NCBI GenBank assembly: GCA_900316105.1
Contig: ONBR01000008.1
Location: 1-64,000, forward strand
DNA from: an uncultured Olsenella sp.
Lineage (GTDB): Bacteria > Actinomycetota > Coriobacteriia > Coriobacteriales > Atopobiaceae
Direction of reading: 5' to 3'
DNA: 64,000 nucleotides
The position numbers and the translations under genes were made by a program. Position 1 is the first letter of the stretch. Every line of letters begins with the position of its first letter. Shown here piece by piece: positions 10,823 to 41,132 of this stretch. The notes beneath the pieces are model-generated. The model did not search any database and was not told the DNA's origin. It saw only the letters and a program-made list of their open reading frames with translations.

Positions 10823-12160
10823 TCAGCCGTCAATCTCCGATTGTGCGATGCGGTTCACGTAGCCGCATTGCCTGCAACGCCAGCTATCGCGGATGTCGTC
10901 AAAGCCCTCCTGGGCATTGAGCAGGTCACCGCACTGGTCGCAGTACCACATCACTCCCGGATAGCGGTTGCCTGAGTACACGCCGTCGCCGTAGAGCTGC
11001 TGGCCACATGCCCGGCAGATCCAAAAGCCATCATTCGACTCAAACCCTGACTGGGCTTCCAGAATTGCCCCGCAGTTGGGGCAGACGGACACGTCCTGGA
11101 CGTCTCCCCCATCCTGTGCCTCGGCTTTGGTCAGCATCCTGACGGCCCTCCCAAATCTAGAGAGGCCAAAGGCAATCCTGCCCAGGAGCCTCCTCGGCGC
11201 AGGATGTCGTTCGTCCCCACCGTCTTCGTTCGGCTTCTCCATGCAAATGGCTGACCCATTCGCTGACGGGGACTCCGCCCAGGCCTCCTGCCCAGACGAA
11301 CCCGCGTCCATGAACGCGGACACGAGCGCCTTTCGCATGGCCTCGGCATTCTGGTAGCGGTCGTCGGGATCAAAGGCCGTCGCCTTGCGCGCGATCATGC
11401 AGAGACGTTGGTTCGAGCAGGCACCGCTAAACCCACGCTCCACGTCACCCTGAGCCGGCATGTGGCCCAGCAGGCAGTAGGCCAGGGTCATGCCCGTGGC
11501 ATAGGCGTCGGTCCTGACGTCGGTCTGCCTGATACCGTACTGCTCGGGAGCAGCAAAACCACTCGTGCCAAAGTGCCGAGTATCCGACTCGGCCCCTGGC
11601 TTGTACGAACGCGAGATGCCCAGGTCCACGAGCACGACCGCGGTAGGTGCCTCCCCTTCGCCCGTGCACATCACGTTGCTCGGCTTAACGTCCCTGTGGA
11701 TGACAGGCTCGTCCATTCCCCGATGCATCTCGGTCAGTGCCTCGCAAAGCTGGGGAATGACGATGGAGGCGATGGCGAGGCGATGACCCTCGTCGGCTCC
11801 TTCGATCCAGGCGTCAAGTGTCCGTCCCCGCACGTACTCCATAAGCACGAGCAGGTGGTCCACCTGGTCGGAGCAGAGGATGAGCCTTGGCAGATGGGCA
11901 AAGCGCCTGCCCTGTTGCTGGGCGTGGTAGAGGAGCTCGTATCCCCTCCCAGCGACACGTTCGTCTCTGCCACCAGGAAAGGTCTTGCGAACATAAGGTT
12001 CTAGTTCCCTACCGCTGACGCTCCGTAGGTAGACCAGGTCGGTCTTCTCCTGGCCCGACTCCTTGAGCACCCGCTCGACCCGCAGGTCTTCGACCAACGC
12101 CATGTCACGAAGATACTGGTCGAGTCCTGCCTCGAAGTCCTCGTCCCCACCACTTTCCAT
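10823..12160 (-). CDS. Soluble Ser/Thr protein kinase with two C-terminal zinc ribbons
   Basis: A 445-residue Hanks-type kinase. The catalytic loop HRDVKPSNVM is intact, the metal-binding DFG reads DLG (VDLGISRSY), and the activation segment ends GTSGFAAPEQYG. The glycine loop is poorly conserved. There is no membrane segment or PASTA domain. The last 90 residues carry two four-Cys ribbons (CPNCG...CRACG and CDQCG...CRQCG). I chose the ATG at 12158-12160 because GGAGGG lies four bases upstream; an in-frame GTG at 12199 would add 13 residues. It is divergent from the HTH gene at 12316, with which it shares a 155-base control region, suggesting a kinase-regulator pair. Substrates are unknown. 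Confidence 0.85.
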   Translation of the reverse strand: MESGGDEDFEAGLDQYLRDMALVEDLRVERVLKESGQEKTDLVYLRSVSGRELEPYVRKTFPGGRDERVAGRGYELLYHAQQQGRRFAHLPRLILCSDQVDHLLVLMEYVRGRTLDAWIEGADEGHRLAIASIVIPQLCEALTEMHRGMDEPVIHRDVKPSNVMCTGEGEAPTAVVLVDLGISRSYKPGAESDTRHFGTSGFAAPEQYGIRQTDVRTDAYATGMTLAYCLLGHMPAQGDVERGFSGACSNQRLCMIARKATAFDPDDRYQNAEAMRKALVSAFMDAGSSGQEAWAESPSANGSAICMEKPNEDGGDERHPAPRRLLGRIAFGLSRFGRAVRMLTKAEAQDGGDVQDVSVCPNCGAILEAQSGFESNDGFWICRACGQQLYGDGVYSGNRYPGVMWYCDQCGDLLNAQEGFDDIRDSWRCRQCGYVNRIAQSEIDG

Positions 12161-12315
12161 CCGCCCCTCCGCAACTCGCACACTAGCCTGTCTGCTCACA
12201 ACAATCTTATGGTATGCAGCGAGCAGACAACATGTACTAGCCAGCAGCTAATGTCACACGGCGCGCAAGGCATACCATGGATTATTGACGTACGAGCTCG
12301 TTGCTAGGAGACCAC

Positions 12316-32617: not shown

Positions 32618-32941
32618 CTACTCGGAAGCGAGCTTGGCACCGCACTTGTTGCAGAACTCGGAACCCTTGGGGTTCTTTGCACCGCACTTGTTGCAAAAGA
32701 CGACGTCCTCCGCAACCTCGGCTGCCGGCTCCTCGACCTGGGCGTCCTCGGTGACGTCCTCGACGGTGTCCGTTACGTCGGTAGCCTTCTGCTCGCCCTC
32801 GTCACCATCCATGCCCTCACGGATGTTCTTGACCGTCTTGCCCAGGGACTTGCCCAGCTTCGGCAGGTTCTTGGGCCCAAAGATGACCAGAACGACGACG
32901 ACAATCAGAAGGAGCTCGGGGATGCCCATACCAAGAATCAT
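32618..32941 (-). CDS. tatA: Sec-independent translocase subunit TatA with a C-terminal zinc ribbon
   Basis: A 107-residue protein. Residues 3-22 form the membrane anchor (GIPELLLIVVVVLVIFGPKN, the invariant FGP motif), followed by the amphipathic helix LGKSLGKTVKNIREGMDGDE and an acidic tail. The last 25 residues hold two CNKCGAK units, a four-Cys zinc ribbon not usual in TatA. The ATG at 32939-32941 has GGAGG five bases upstream. No tatC or tatB is in the window. Confidence 0.9.
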   Translation of the reverse strand: MILGMGIPELLLIVVVVLVIFGPKNLPKLGKSLGKTVKNIREGMDGDEGEQKATDVTDTVEDVTEDAQVEEPAAEVAEDVVFCNKCGAKNPKGSEFCNKCGAKLASE

Positions 32942-33066
32942 GAAATCCTCCAAAAACAAAAGGTGCAAATGCATATGCGATGTGCAATTTTCGTAAAGGG
33001 TAGTATAGCCGACGACACCCCTTACTCACAATCTTTATCAGTATAAGGACACTTAACGCAAACGCC

Positions 33067-36351: not shown

Positions 36352-36461
36352 GAAGGATCCTTTCGACAAGAAGCATAGTCAAGAAGAACTATAGCCCAGC
36401 GGGGGCAAGCTTGGTACCTGAGCGCAAGATGGGTTTGTTTACGCAAGGAGGCATTCAGCTC

Positions 36462-36489
36462 TTGACAAGTATGTATCCAATGGTATTCT
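36462..36489 (+). promoter_or_regulatory. Promoter of the heavy-metal P-type ATPase gene
   Basis: TTGACA (36462-36467) and TATTCT (36484-36489) with a 16-base spacer, 62 bases before the ATPase start. Confidence 0.6.
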
Positions 36490-36500
36490 TACCTGAAGTT

Positions 36501-36516
36501 ATGAGTGATTGCTCAT
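36501..36516 (+). promoter_or_regulatory. Palindrome downstream of the -10: candidate ArsR/SmtB-type operator
   Basis: ATGAGTGATTGCTCAT is a perfect inverted repeat (ATGAG/CTCAT) 11 bases after the -10. Metal-responsive ArsR/SmtB repressors bind palindromes of this shape near the start site of efflux genes. No ArsR-family gene is nearby, so the regulator would have to act in trans. Confidence 0.4.
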
Positions 36517-36551
36517 GTGTTCATGTGCAACTCGATCGAAAGGATTGCACC

Positions 36552-38576
36552 ATGTCCTGCTCCTGCTGCCACGACGACGAGGACCAGAAGAAGATCGCCT
36601 GCGGCTGCGACGACGCCGACCCCGATCTGGACGACGACTTCGACGACGAGGACGATGACGACGAGGACGACGAGGACGATGACGACGAGGACGACGAGGA
36701 CCCCGCGGTCCTGAAGCGCAAGATCGTCATCTCCGCCCTCCTGCTGGTCATCGCCTACCTGGTCCAGACCACCGTGACCCTCCCCCTTTGGGGCCAGCTC
36801 ATCCTCTTCCTCCCCTCCTATCTGGTGGCAGGCTGGGGAACCCTGCACGAGGCAGGCGAGAACGTCGCCCACGGTGGCCCCTTCGACGAGGACTTCCTGA
36901 TGGCAGTGGCCACCATCGGCGCCCTCCTGATCGCCTTCGTCCCCGGCGGCGAGCCCATGTTTGCCGAGGCAGTCTTTGTCATGCTCTTCTTTGAGGTGGG
37001 CGAGCTCTTTGAGGGCATCGCCGAGGAGAACAGCCAGAAGTCCATCAGCGAGCTCATAGACATCCGTCCCGACAGCGCAAACGTGGAACGTGCGGGTCAG
37101 CTCCAGGTGGTGAATCCGACCGAGGTGGCCGTGGGCGAGACCATCGTGGTCAAGCCTGGCGAGCGCGTCCCCCTGGACGGCGTCGTGATCGAGGGTACGT
37201 CCAGCCTGGACACCGTCGCCCTTACCGGCGAGTCCCAGCCCCTCGACGTCACCGTCGACGATGAGGTGCTCTCCGGCTGCGTGAACCTCTCTGGCGCCCT
37301 TCGCGTGCGCACCTCGAAGCCCTTCGGCGAGTCCACCGCGTCAAAGATCATCGACCTGGTAAAGAACGCGGGCTCCAACAAGTCCCACTCCGAGAAGTTC
37401 ATCAAGCGTTTCGCCAAGGTCTACACCCCTATCGTGGTCTTTGCCGCCATCGCCCTGGCCATCATCCCACCCGCGATCTCGGGCGACTTCGGCGCCAACT
37501 TCGCCACCTGGCTCCTGCGCGCCCTGACCTTCCTGGTTGTCTCCTGCCCCTGCGCCCTGGTGCTGAGCGTACCTCTGACCTTCTTTGGCGGCATCGGCGG
37601 CGCGTCCAAGCGCGGCGTCCTGGTCAAGGGCTCCAACTACCTGGAGACCCTGGCAAAGGCCGGCGTCGTCGTCTTTGACAAGACGGGCACCCTCACCAAG
37701 GGCACCTTCCAGGTGACGGCAGTCCACCCCGACAAGCTGGACTCCAAGCAGCTCCTGCACCTGGCAGCCCATGTCGAGGGCCTCTCCACCCACCCCATCG
37801 CAGCGGCGCTGCGCCAGGCCTTCCCCTGCGAGGGCGACTCCTGCACGGTGTCTGAGACAACCGAGGTCGCCGGCAAGGGCATCATCGCCACGGTCAATGA
37901 CAAGAAGGTCGCCGTGGGCAACGACCGTCTGATGGAATCCGTCGCCGCCCATTGGCATACCTGCGAGCATGACGAGGGCACGGTCATCCACGTAGCGATT
38001 GACGAGGTCTACGCCGGCCATGTGGTCATCTCCGACCAGGTGAAGGAGGACTCGGCCCAGGCCATCTCAAACCTCAGGTCCGAGGGCGTCTCTCGCAGCG
38101 TCATGCTCACCGGGGACCGCAAAGACGTGGCCGAGCGCATCGCCAAGCAACTGGACCTGGACGAGTTCCACGCCGAGCTCCTCCCTGGCGACAAGGTCGA
38201 CCAAGTGGAGCACCTGATGCACGACAAGGCCGAGGACCAGACCCTGGTCTTCGTTGGTGACGGCATCAACGACGCACCCGTCCTGGCCCGCGCCGACGTG
38301 GGCATCGCCATGGGCGCCATGGGCTCCGATGCAGCCATCGAGGCGGCGGACGTCGTCCTAATGGACGACAAGCCCTCCAAGGTGGCCGTGGCCATTCGCA
38401 TCGCCCGCCGCACGCTCAAGATCGCGCGGCAGAACATCGTCTTTGCCATCACGGTCAAGCTGGCAATCCTAGCCCTGGCAGCCGTGGGCCTGGCCCCCAT
38501 GTGGCTGGCAGTCTTTGGAGACGTGGGCGTCATGATCCTCTGCGTCCTCAACGCCACCAGGGCTCTGCGCGCCTAG
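36552..38576 (+). CDS. cadA: Heavy-metal-translocating P-type ATPase (P1B, Cd/Zn type) with an acidic N-terminus
   Basis: A 674-residue efflux ATPase. After a short CSCC-containing start and CGC, a stretch of about 30 residues is nearly all Asp/Glu, in place of the usual heavy-metal-associated domain. The TM6 motif is SCPCALVLSVP, the phosphorylated Asp is in DKTGTLTKG, and GDGINDAPVLARADVGIAMG gives the hinge. The CPC motif and lack of HMA domains suit the Zn/Cd/Pb subgroup. It has AAAGGA upstream, its own promoter and a possible metal-repressor operator. Metal choice is inferred. Confidence 0.9.
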   Translation: MSCSCCHDDEDQKKIACGCDDADPDLDDDFDDEDDDDEDDEDDDDEDDEDPAVLKRKIVISALLLVIAYLVQTTVTLPLWGQLILFLPSYLVAGWGTLHEAGENVAHGGPFDEDFLMAVATIGALLIAFVPGGEPMFAEAVFVMLFFEVGELFEGIAEENSQKSISELIDIRPDSANVERAGQLQVVNPTEVAVGETIVVKPGERVPLDGVVIEGTSSLDTVALTGESQPLDVTVDDEVLSGCVNLSGALRVRTSKPFGESTASKIIDLVKNAGSNKSHSEKFIKRFAKVYTPIVVFAAIALAIIPPAISGDFGANFATWLLRALTFLVVSCPCALVLSVPLTFFGGIGGASKRGVLVKGSNYLETLAKAGVVVFDKTGTLTKGTFQVTAVHPDKLDSKQLLHLAAHVEGLSTHPIAAALRQAFPCEGDSCTVSETTEVAGKGIIATVNDKKVAVGNDRLMESVAAHWHTCEHDEGTVIHVAIDEVYAGHVVISDQVKEDSAQAISNLRSEGVSRSVMLTGDRKDVAERIAKQLDLDEFHAELLPGDKVDQVEHLMHDKAEDQTLVFVGDGINDAPVLARADVGIAMGAMGSDAAIEAADVVLMDDKPSKVAVAIRIARRTLKIARQNIVFAITVKLAILALAAVGLAPMWLAVFGDVGVMILCVLNATRALRA

Positions 38577-38688: not shown

Positions 38689-39954
38689 CTAGATGAGCCC
38701 GTAGGCCTTCTTTACCTTGAGGATGCGGGTCAAGCTCTGGTCAACGCGATCCTCGGTCAGGTCGCCATTCTTTACCGCATCCAGGATCCCCTTGTAGGCA
38801 ACGGGCAGGCTGTTTGGACCAAGTACCAGGTCGCCGCCTGCCTTGAGGAAGCCCACTGCCGCGGCATCCGAGTGGTAGTCGTTTCCGATGGCTGCCATGG
38901 CCATGGAGTCCGAGACCACCAGACCGTCAAAGCCCAGCTCCTTGCGGAGGAGCCCATCAATAAGCTCGGGACTCAGGGTAGCGGGCACATCGTCGCCCGT
39001 TATGGCGGGAACTCCGATGTGACCGACCATGATTGCAGGCACACCCGCCTTTATGGCGGCGCGGAAGGGCACGAGCTCGCAAGACTCCAGCTCTTCACGC
39101 GAACGCGTACTTGTGGCCTTGCCGGTATGGGAGTCGCCCACCGTGTCGCCGTGACCTGGGAAGTGCTTCGCACAGCAGGCCATGCCCGCCTCCGCAAAGC
39201 CCTGGACCTCCGCCTCGACCATGGAAGCCACCAGATCGGGGTCGTCGCCAAAGGAACGCGTACCGATCACGGTGTTGTCTGGGTTGGTCAACACGTCCGC
39301 CACGGGTGCCAGGTCCATGGAAAAGCCCAGCTCGTGCAGGTACTTTCCGATGGTCTGGCCCACGTGCTGGGCCTTTGAGGAATCCCCTGCCTTTTCCAGC
39401 GTGGCCATGGCAGGAAACTTTTCCACGTCAAAGTAACCGGAGTTGGCAACGCGAGCAACGAGGGGCCCACCCTCCTCGTCCACGGAGATGATCGCAGGGA
39501 TGCCCGCACCGACCCCCTTGGTGGCTTCGGTGAGATCGGACAGCAGCTTGCGTGTCTGGTCCGCCCCGGTGATGTTGGCCCCAAAGAGGCAGAGGCCGCC
39601 AACGGGATAGGTGGAGAGCGCATCTCGAAGGTCGTCTCCCACAGAGGTGACGCCCTTCTCGCCGTAGGAGTCACTGGCAGAAGTGTCCACGTCCAGGGCG
39701 CCCAGGAGCCCCTCGGGAGTGGGTGCCAGGAGCTGGGCAGCCTTCTGCTCCAAGCTCATGGAGGCAATGGCATCCGCTATGGGATCGGGCTGATGGTTCC
39801 CCTCCTGGCTCGCCTGCCGCTGACCGTCTCCCTGAGAGTCCTGGTCCTTTTGCCCTGCAAGGTCCTCGTTGCTGCAACGCACAATCACGCCCGCGGCCGT
39901 CACACCCAGTACGGCGGCAGCTCCAACCACCAGGGTCCTTCTCGTCAATGCCAT
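38689..39954 (-). CDS. nagZ: Glycoside hydrolase family 3 protein (NagZ-like beta-N-acetylhexosaminidase), probably exported
   Basis: A 421-residue enzyme that removes N-acetylglucosamine from peptidoglycan fragments. The family loop KHFPGHGDTVGDSH is present, as are the nucleophile region GLVVSDSMAM, DEEGGPLVARV and GTRSFGDDP. The N-terminus TRRTLVVGAAAVLG is a twin-arginine-like signal peptide, so the protein is probably exported by Tat (a tatA gene is in the window). A charged, low-complexity linker of about 40 residues precedes the barrel. The ATG at 39952-39954 has AGGG seven bases upstream. Confidence 0.88.
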   Translation of the reverse strand: MALTRRTLVVGAAAVLGVTAAGVIVRCSNEDLAGQKDQDSQGDGQRQASQEGNHQPDPIADAIASMSLEQKAAQLLAPTPEGLLGALDVDTSASDSYGEKGVTSVGDDLRDALSTYPVGGLCLFGANITGADQTRKLLSDLTEATKGVGAGIPAIISVDEEGGPLVARVANSGYFDVEKFPAMATLEKAGDSSKAQHVGQTIGKYLHELGFSMDLAPVADVLTNPDNTVIGTRSFGDDPDLVASMVEAEVQGFAEAGMACCAKHFPGHGDTVGDSHTGKATSTRSREELESCELVPFRAAIKAGVPAIMVGHIGVPAITGDDVPATLSPELIDGLLRKELGFDGLVVSDSMAMAAIGNDYHSDAAAVGFLKAGGDLVLGPNSLPVAYKGILDAVKNGDLTEDRVDQSLTRILKVKKAYGLI

Positions 39955-40091
39955 CGCGTACCCTATCCTCGTCGAATTCTTTCGGAATATATCTTCGCGC
40001 ACATGGCCACCGAAAATGTTGTGCAACAAAGTCAATCACACACGGCATATGCTTTTTAATCGGAAACGCAATCTACCGTGGAGGGACGGCC

Positions 40092-41132
40092 ATGTTTTGT
40101 CCGAAGTGTGGGACTCAGATAGATGACGGGAGCAGGTTTTGCCCAGAGTGCGGTGCCTCCCTTGAGGACGTGTTCGTGACGAGCGCCCCCGAGCCCACCC
40201 AGCAGGCAGATGCCTATCCCAAAGATGCCTATCCCAGCTCCGCGGAGGACAAGGTGACAGAGACGGTAAGGTTCCACTCCTCCGTCCCAAGCTCCACGCC
40301 CACGACCCAGCCCATCTATGCGGCGCCCTCTCCCCAGCCCGACCCAGAACCAGAATCGACCAAGTCCAAGGGCGGACGGTGGATGTACGCGATCGTCCTC
40401 GTTCTGTTTGCAGCCGTCGTCTTTTTGGGAGTCATCCTGGTGGGGCCAAGGCTTGGCCTCGGCGGCGGCAACGACAACACTCCCTCGCAGGACCAGCCCG
40501 CGCCCGAAGACAAGAACAAGAAGTCGATGGTCATCACGCCTGACCCAACGAGCGACCAGGCGTCCGTACCCAATGTCGTCTCGAAGTCGCAGTCCGACGC
40601 AAAGAAGGCACTGGAGGACGCGGGATTTTCCGTCGGCAGCGTGACCGAGCAAAAGAGTGACCAGCCCAAGGGCACCGTCATCTCGCAGTCAACGACAGGC
40701 GACGCAAAGAAGGGCACTGGCATCGACCTGGTGGTTTCCAAGGGCGACAAGACCTACACCGTCGTCGACCAGGCCTGCACCTGGCTGGAGGCCGAGGACT
40801 ACTGCGAGCAGCACGGCGGACACCTGGCCTCAATCACCTCGCAGGAGGAGTGGGAACAGGCGAAGGCCGCCATGCAGGCAGACGGCCACAAGGTGTTCTG
40901 GATCGGCGGCACCAGGTCGAACGACGGCTCCTTTAGCTGGATTGACGGAAGCCCCTGGGGCTTCACCGCCTGGGCCTCCACCGAACCCAACAACAACGAC
41001 GGTGAGGGCGGAAGCGAGAACTTCACCGCTGTCTATCTGGTCAAGGGTTCCCTTGAATGGTACGACTGCCCCAACGACCTTTCCAGCTTCTACAATGACA
41101 CGGCGATGGCCTTCCTGATGGAGTCGGAGTAG
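40092..41132 (+). CDS. Zinc-ribbon / transmembrane / PASTA / C-type lectin protein
   Basis: A 346-residue protein with four parts: a CPKCG...CPECG zinc ribbon (residues 3-24), a Pro/Ser-rich linker, a membrane helix (YAIVLVLFAAVVFLGVILVG), a PASTA domain (VPNVVSKSQSDAKKALEDAG) and a C-type-lectin-like domain with HLASITSQEEW, WIGGTRSNDG, the calcium-site triplet EPN (in TEPNNNDGEGG) and WYDC. The ATG has GGAGG nine bases upstream. The zinc ribbon would be inside the cell and the PASTA-lectin part outside. Neighbours do not explain its role; a surface binding or envelope-sensing function is inference. Confidence 0.88.
   Translation: MFCPKCGTQIDDGSRFCPECGASLEDVFVTSAPEPTQQADAYPKDAYPSSAEDKVTETVRFHSSVPSSTPTTQPIYAAPSPQPDPEPESTKSKGGRWMYAIVLVLFAAVVFLGVILVGPRLGLGGGNDNTPSQDQPAPEDKNKKSMVITPDPTSDQASVPNVVSKSQSDAKKALEDAGFSVGSVTEQKSDQPKGTVISQSTTGDAKKGTGIDLVVSKGDKTYTVVDQACTWLEAEDYCEQHGGHLASITSQEEWEQAKAAMQADGHKVFWIGGTRSNDGSFSWIDGSPWGFTAWASTEPNNNDGEGGSENFTAVYLVKGSLEWYDCPNDLSSFYNDTAMAFLMESE

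Follow-up and report, generated by a model that had tools for sequence, protein, structure and literature searches.

A zinc ribbon–PASTA–C-type lectin membrane protein genetically linked to a NagZ-type beta-N-acetylglucosaminidase in Coriobacteriales

The C-type lectin fold is best known from animal immune receptors, and its presence at the end of a bacterial membrane protein raises the question of what such a protein binds and with which partner it works. We examined one such gene from an uncultured Olsenella sp. of the family Atopobiaceae, located in a 64,000-nucleotide stretch of contig ONBR01000008.1 (the window; Table 1). Zn_Ribbon_1, PASTA, and Lectin_C all scored above their curated Pfam cut-offs in the translated protein, with the Lectin_C match spanning residues 229–325 (48.9 bits, cut-off 22.6), and all four zinc-ribbon cysteines were invariant across 18 homologues. 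A full-length AlphaFold2 model built on an 18-sequence alignment showed a confident PASTA domain and C-type lectin domain (CTLD), low-confidence linkers, and only one long helix, directly preceded by basic residues, which fits a topology with the N-terminus inside the cell and the PASTA–CTLD part outside. Modeled alone from 33 sequences, the CTLD reached a mean pLDDT of 93.2 and a pTM of 0.89, and Foldseek ranked carbohydrate-recognition domain (CRD) 4 of the mannose receptor as its best PDB match (7juf_A, E 5.7e-9, TM 0.77–0.80), followed by langerin CRDs. The protein thus has both the C-type lectin-like fold and Lectin_C membership, and the original prediction that the four modules occur in one protein is borne out, as is the lectin fold on which it depended. 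In one of the four other genomes of the genus, a full-length homologue (42% identity) arranges its domains identically, and many more homologues occur across the order, so the architecture is not a chance assembly.

Table 1. Features of the lectin gene, its protein product, and the divergent GH3 neighbor
Feature	Position	Strand	Basis
Zinc ribbon–membrane helix–PASTA–C-type lectin gene	40092..41132	+	Translation of 346 aa; Pfam; homologues with the same order
N-terminal zinc ribbon, residues 2–24, CxxCG...CxxCG, predicted cytoplasmic	40095..40163	+	Zn_Ribbon_1, 42 bits
Single membrane helix, residues 97–121	40380..40454	+	Helix in model; basic residues on the N-terminal side suggest N-in
PASTA domain, residues 159–217, predicted extracellular	40566..40742	+	PASTA, 49 bits; model pLDDT >90 over most of the domain
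CTLD, residues 221–346, predicted extracellular	40752..41129	+	Lectin_C, 48.9 bits; model pLDDT 93; Foldseek matches
EPN motif, residues 298–300, canonical calcium/sugar site	40983..40991	+	E and P 35/35, N 32/35 in alignment
E309, counterpart of the canonical site-2 glutamate	41016..41018	+	35/35
Y324–D325, counterpart of the WND Asn–Asp	41061..41066	+	D in all 35; Y in 31, N in 3, F in 1
GH3 NagZ-type beta-N-acetylglucosaminidase gene, 421 aa, stop codon 38689–38691	38692..39954	-	GH3, 258.6 bits; divergent neighbor
Intergenic region, 137 bp, between the divergent GH3 and lectin genes	39955..40091	.	Coordinates; start codons chosen by inspection

The calcium/sugar site of the CTLD is both highly conserved and unusual. 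Canonical CTLDs bind calcium and sugar through the EPN motif, a site glutamate, and the Asn–Asp pair of the WND motif. In an alignment of 35 CTLD sequences, E298, P299, E309, and D325 were invariant and N300 was present in 32, so the domain has the EPN motif of calcium-dependent, sugar-binding CTLDs. Its WND motif reads WYD in the window protein, and the Asn is replaced by Tyr in 31 of the 35 members. The C238 position was Cys in 34 of 35, and the position taken as Cys4 was Met in 30 of 35, leaving the Cys1–Cys4 disulfide without its usual pair. By this alignment, the family holds strictly or almost strictly to four of the five side chains that usually make up the calcium/sugar site, and the fifth has undergone a lineage-specific replacement. 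The domain may plausibly bind calcium and sugar, and its ligand binding may differ from that of known lectins or may have been lost. The EPN calcium site of the original prediction is thus present at the motif, but the full site is not intact; the mannose or GlcNAc preference drawn from EPN does not follow, because the paired Asn is nearly always Tyr and Cys4 is lost, though the remaining ligand positions vary little or not at all. Compared with mannose receptor CRD4 and langerin, the window CTLD shares the fold, the EPN motif, and the site Glu and Asp, and differs in its Tyr, its lack of Cys4, and its bacterial, probably wall-facing setting tied to NagZ.

The CTLD family was largely restricted to the order Coriobacteriales: its alignment matched 43 of 397 genomes of the order but 3 of 396 in an even sample of the phylum, two of which were the window's own genome and another of the same family. 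Within Atopobiaceae, 27 of 140 genomes had a Lectin_C match, mostly in short zinc ribbon–helix–(PASTA)–CTLD proteins and in a few zinc ribbon–vWA–CTLD or large secreted proteins, while a contig search with the full lectin protein returned mostly matches to the zinc ribbon only. Three of the vWA type (zinc ribbon–helix–vWA–CTLD: L051, L053, and L054 in genomes G060, G069, and G061), all from Atopobiaceae, keep the canonical Asn–Asp pair and Cys4 and have EPS in place of EPN; one of them, L051 (also L156), lies beside a GH3 gene. Six very large secreted proteins (open reading frames of about 1870–2340 aa) carry at least one C-type lectin domain.

Upstream of the lectin gene and divergent from it lies a GH3 gene, and the intergenic region would hold both promoters. 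The Pfam GH3 catalytic domain, far above its cut-off of 27 bits, is the sole Pfam domain of the encoded protein, whose closest PDB match is the GH3 beta-N-acetylglucosaminidase 6k5j (E 3.6e-63), with Bacillus subtilis YbbD/NagZ and the mycobacterial LpqI also matched. The score against the NCBIfam beta-N-acetylhexosaminidase equivalog NF003740 (176 bits) fell below its cut-off of 207, though the nearest solved structures are still GH3 beta-N-acetylglucosaminidases. With the NagZ dyad positions assigned from motif, the Asp of the nucleophile motif was present in all 28 GH3 copies next to lectin genes and the loop His in 25, in keeping with a NagZ-type GH3, and the enzyme looks active. In most copies the N-terminus carries a lipobox or a hydrophobic anchor, often preceded by a twin-arginine pair; the window copy begins with RR and a hydrophobic stretch, and its VIVRC does not fit the lipobox pattern. 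The enzyme thus looks to lie outside the membrane, where both it and the lectin protein would face the wall. In one genus a D-Ala-D-Ala ligase-type gene adjoins GH3, which follows it in some genomes, and this supports a wall role.

GH3 was adjacent to the lectin gene at 28 of 35 Coriobacteriales loci, defined as this CTLD subfamily within a zinc-ribbon or kinase membrane protein; many of these loci are related rather than independent, and any formal linkage probability is indicative only. The two genes ran in the same direction with GH3 upstream in 20 cases and downstream in 3, and were divergent in 3 (including the window) and convergent in 2. Since adjacency survived rearrangement into all four orientations, functional coupling explains it better than mere inherited order. 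Among the seven loci without GH3 nearby, two were on short contigs and two were of the vWA type. Counts read by eye from genome listings gave a NagZ-like GH3 in 17 of 18 Atopobiaceae genomes with the short lectin gene versus 67 of 122 without it (p ~0.001, kinship ignored). GH3 occurred without a CTLD in many genomes, indicating that NagZ needs no lectin protein and that the lectin is an optional accessory. GH3/NagZ is the sole widely conserved genetic partner that we found. The neighboring heavy-metal P-type ATPase gene (36411–38576) was set aside as a partner: in one other genus it also lies near the lectin gene, but there it stays beside GH3 whether or not that gene is present, a pattern of local synteny. 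Three divergent CTLD members without an evident PASTA domain or a GH3 gene nearby cluster in the tree, as if they had lost the module together. At L175 (2301–3725, + strand) in G047, a genome without the lectin gene, GH3 comes directly after a different zinc-ribbon protein, a hint that zinc-ribbon proteins more generally pair with this GH3.

The cytoplasmic part of the protein appears to be exchangeable. In three relatives from two families other than Atopobiaceae, the CTLD lies C-terminal to a Ser/Thr kinase domain (Pkinase, 150–165 bits) that replaces the zinc ribbon, with GH3 still a neighbor; PASTA was not seen in the scanned members of this type. Two of the kinase forms grouped with a zinc-ribbon form in the CTLD tree and the third stood apart, which suggests, with weak support, more than one exchange. 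No other observation hints as strongly that the form with the zinc ribbon, too, has a signaling or regulatory role, and the exchange strengthens the sensor half of the original prediction of a surface sensor or adhesin.

Building on the architecture, the fold, the invariant site residues, the GH3 linkage, and the exchange of the cytoplasmic module, we infer a ligand, a direction of coupling, a downstream partner, and signaling through the zinc ribbon. The ligand of the extracellular PASTA domain and CTLD would be peptidoglycan glycan or fragments released from it by turnover, such as GlcNAc-MurNAc or muropeptides, and the GH3 enzyme would make or remove this ligand, with NagZ setting its level. 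The bound state could then pass through the single membrane helix to the cytoplasmic module, here a zinc ribbon onto which a partner protein would dock and, in the relatives from other families, a Ser/Thr kinase domain. We give roughly even chances to the lectin protein being a cell-wall receptor anchored in the membrane, with a surface-anchored NagZ-type beta-N-acetylglucosaminidase as its working partner and an exchangeable cytoplasmic output. The wider proposal, that Coriobacteriales read their own peptidoglycan turnover with a C-type lectin receptor and a surface NagZ whose product or substrate is sensed, with evolution exchanging a zinc-ribbon dock and a Ser/Thr kinase as the cytoplasmic output, is held more tentatively. 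If true, a lectin receptor tied to NagZ in kinase and non-kinase versions would offer a clean gene pair for asking whether NagZ activity is itself a signal, as well as a bacterial C-type lectin domain whose ligand, a self molecule, could be identified. It would also suggest a role for the common and poorly explained proteins made of a zinc ribbon, a membrane helix, and an ectodomain.

The same linkage could instead mean that the PASTA–CTLD part serves as an in-trans carbohydrate-binding module that holds the GH3 NagZ near peptidoglycan, with the zinc ribbon positioning the complex at the membrane. Tight linkage in many arrangements and an enzyme with only a catalytic domain in Pfam both suit such a tether, but the kinase–CTLD fusions are hard to explain by tethering alone and most GH3 copies carry an anchor of their own, so that we regard this as rather unlikely, if the most serious of the alternatives. 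The CTLD might also have lost sugar binding and bind a protein, such as the GH3 enzyme or another surface protein. The Asn-to-Tyr replacement in the sugar/calcium site, the loss of Cys4, and the poor order of the EPN loop in the full-length model (pLDDT <50 at residues 299–305) would all agree with this, but four site positions invariant over 35 diverse members would be unusual for a dead site, and we find this reading doubtful.

We find it about equally doubtful that the protein acts at the surface as an adhesin or receptor for glycans of the host or of neighbors, such as mucin, mannose, or GlcNAc glycans. This reading draws on the EPN motif, on fold matches nearest to the mannose receptor and langerin, and on the many relatives from gut or rumen samples; yet the ectodomain is short (about 225 residues) and near the membrane, the usually wall-facing PASTA domain lies between membrane and CTLD, the WND Asn is replaced, and the gene is linked to a wall-recycling enzyme. 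This linkage makes the adhesin half of the original prediction the less favored one, and the lectin protein probably serves to sense or regulate the cell wall and not as an adhesin on its own. Diversity-generating retroelements have many C-type lectin folds of bacteria and phages among their targets (PMC10743442), a precedent for a variable protein here as well. This is extremely improbable because no reverse transcriptase (RVT_1) was matched in the window's genome assembly (completeness ~92%), and homologues keep the conserved loop residues; we therefore rejected it.

Several known systems resemble parts of the proposed receptor. Muropeptides are the presumed signal for bacterial PASTA kinases, and PknB and PrkC share a single membrane helix, PASTA outside, and a cytoplasmic output module with the window protein, some of whose CTLD relatives are themselves fused to kinases. 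Unlike them, the window protein has a zinc ribbon instead of a kinase and a C-type lectin domain after PASTA; Pfam found no kinase domain in it, and it scored 52 bits against NF033483 (cut-off 450). Caution for PASTA comes from mycobacteria, where the PASTA domain of PknB had an effect on growth that muropeptides did not relieve (PMC4632501). TcaA of Staphylococcus aureus likewise has a zinc finger inside, one membrane helix, and a large extracellular part, and it bears on wall teichoic acid and on how sensitive the cell is to wall-active agents (PMC10328498). It thereby offers an earlier example of a protein built from a zinc finger, a helix, and an ectodomain that affects the wall, though its ectodomain is different and the window protein scored 11.4 bits against the NCBIfam TcaA model (cut-off 550). 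The GH3 neighbor is of the same enzyme kind as LpqI, an authentic NagZ whose authors propose that it regulates GlcNAc-MurNAc levels sensed by the bacterium (PMC6572805). The parts of the literature covered by our searches contained no report of a lectin-like partner gene for LpqI or NagZ, and no description of this architecture or its NagZ linkage.

A zinc-ribbon network joining the lectin protein to a kinase at 10823 and to TatA had also been suggested as a possibility. Both do carry zinc ribbons, but neither is linked to the lectin gene and the only widely conserved partner is GH3/NagZ, so we rejected this coupling and regard the shared zinc ribbon as a coincidence of a common domain. The kinase encoded at 10823–12199 (- strand; Pkinase, 77 bits) is of the Ser/Thr type, looks soluble, and carries two zinc-ribbon-like motifs at its C-terminus. 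TatA (32618–32974, - strand; TatA_B_E, 57 bits) ends in a C-terminal zinc ribbon, an unusual fusion, and we noted alongside it the twin-arginine N-terminus of the GH3 enzyme beside the lectin gene.
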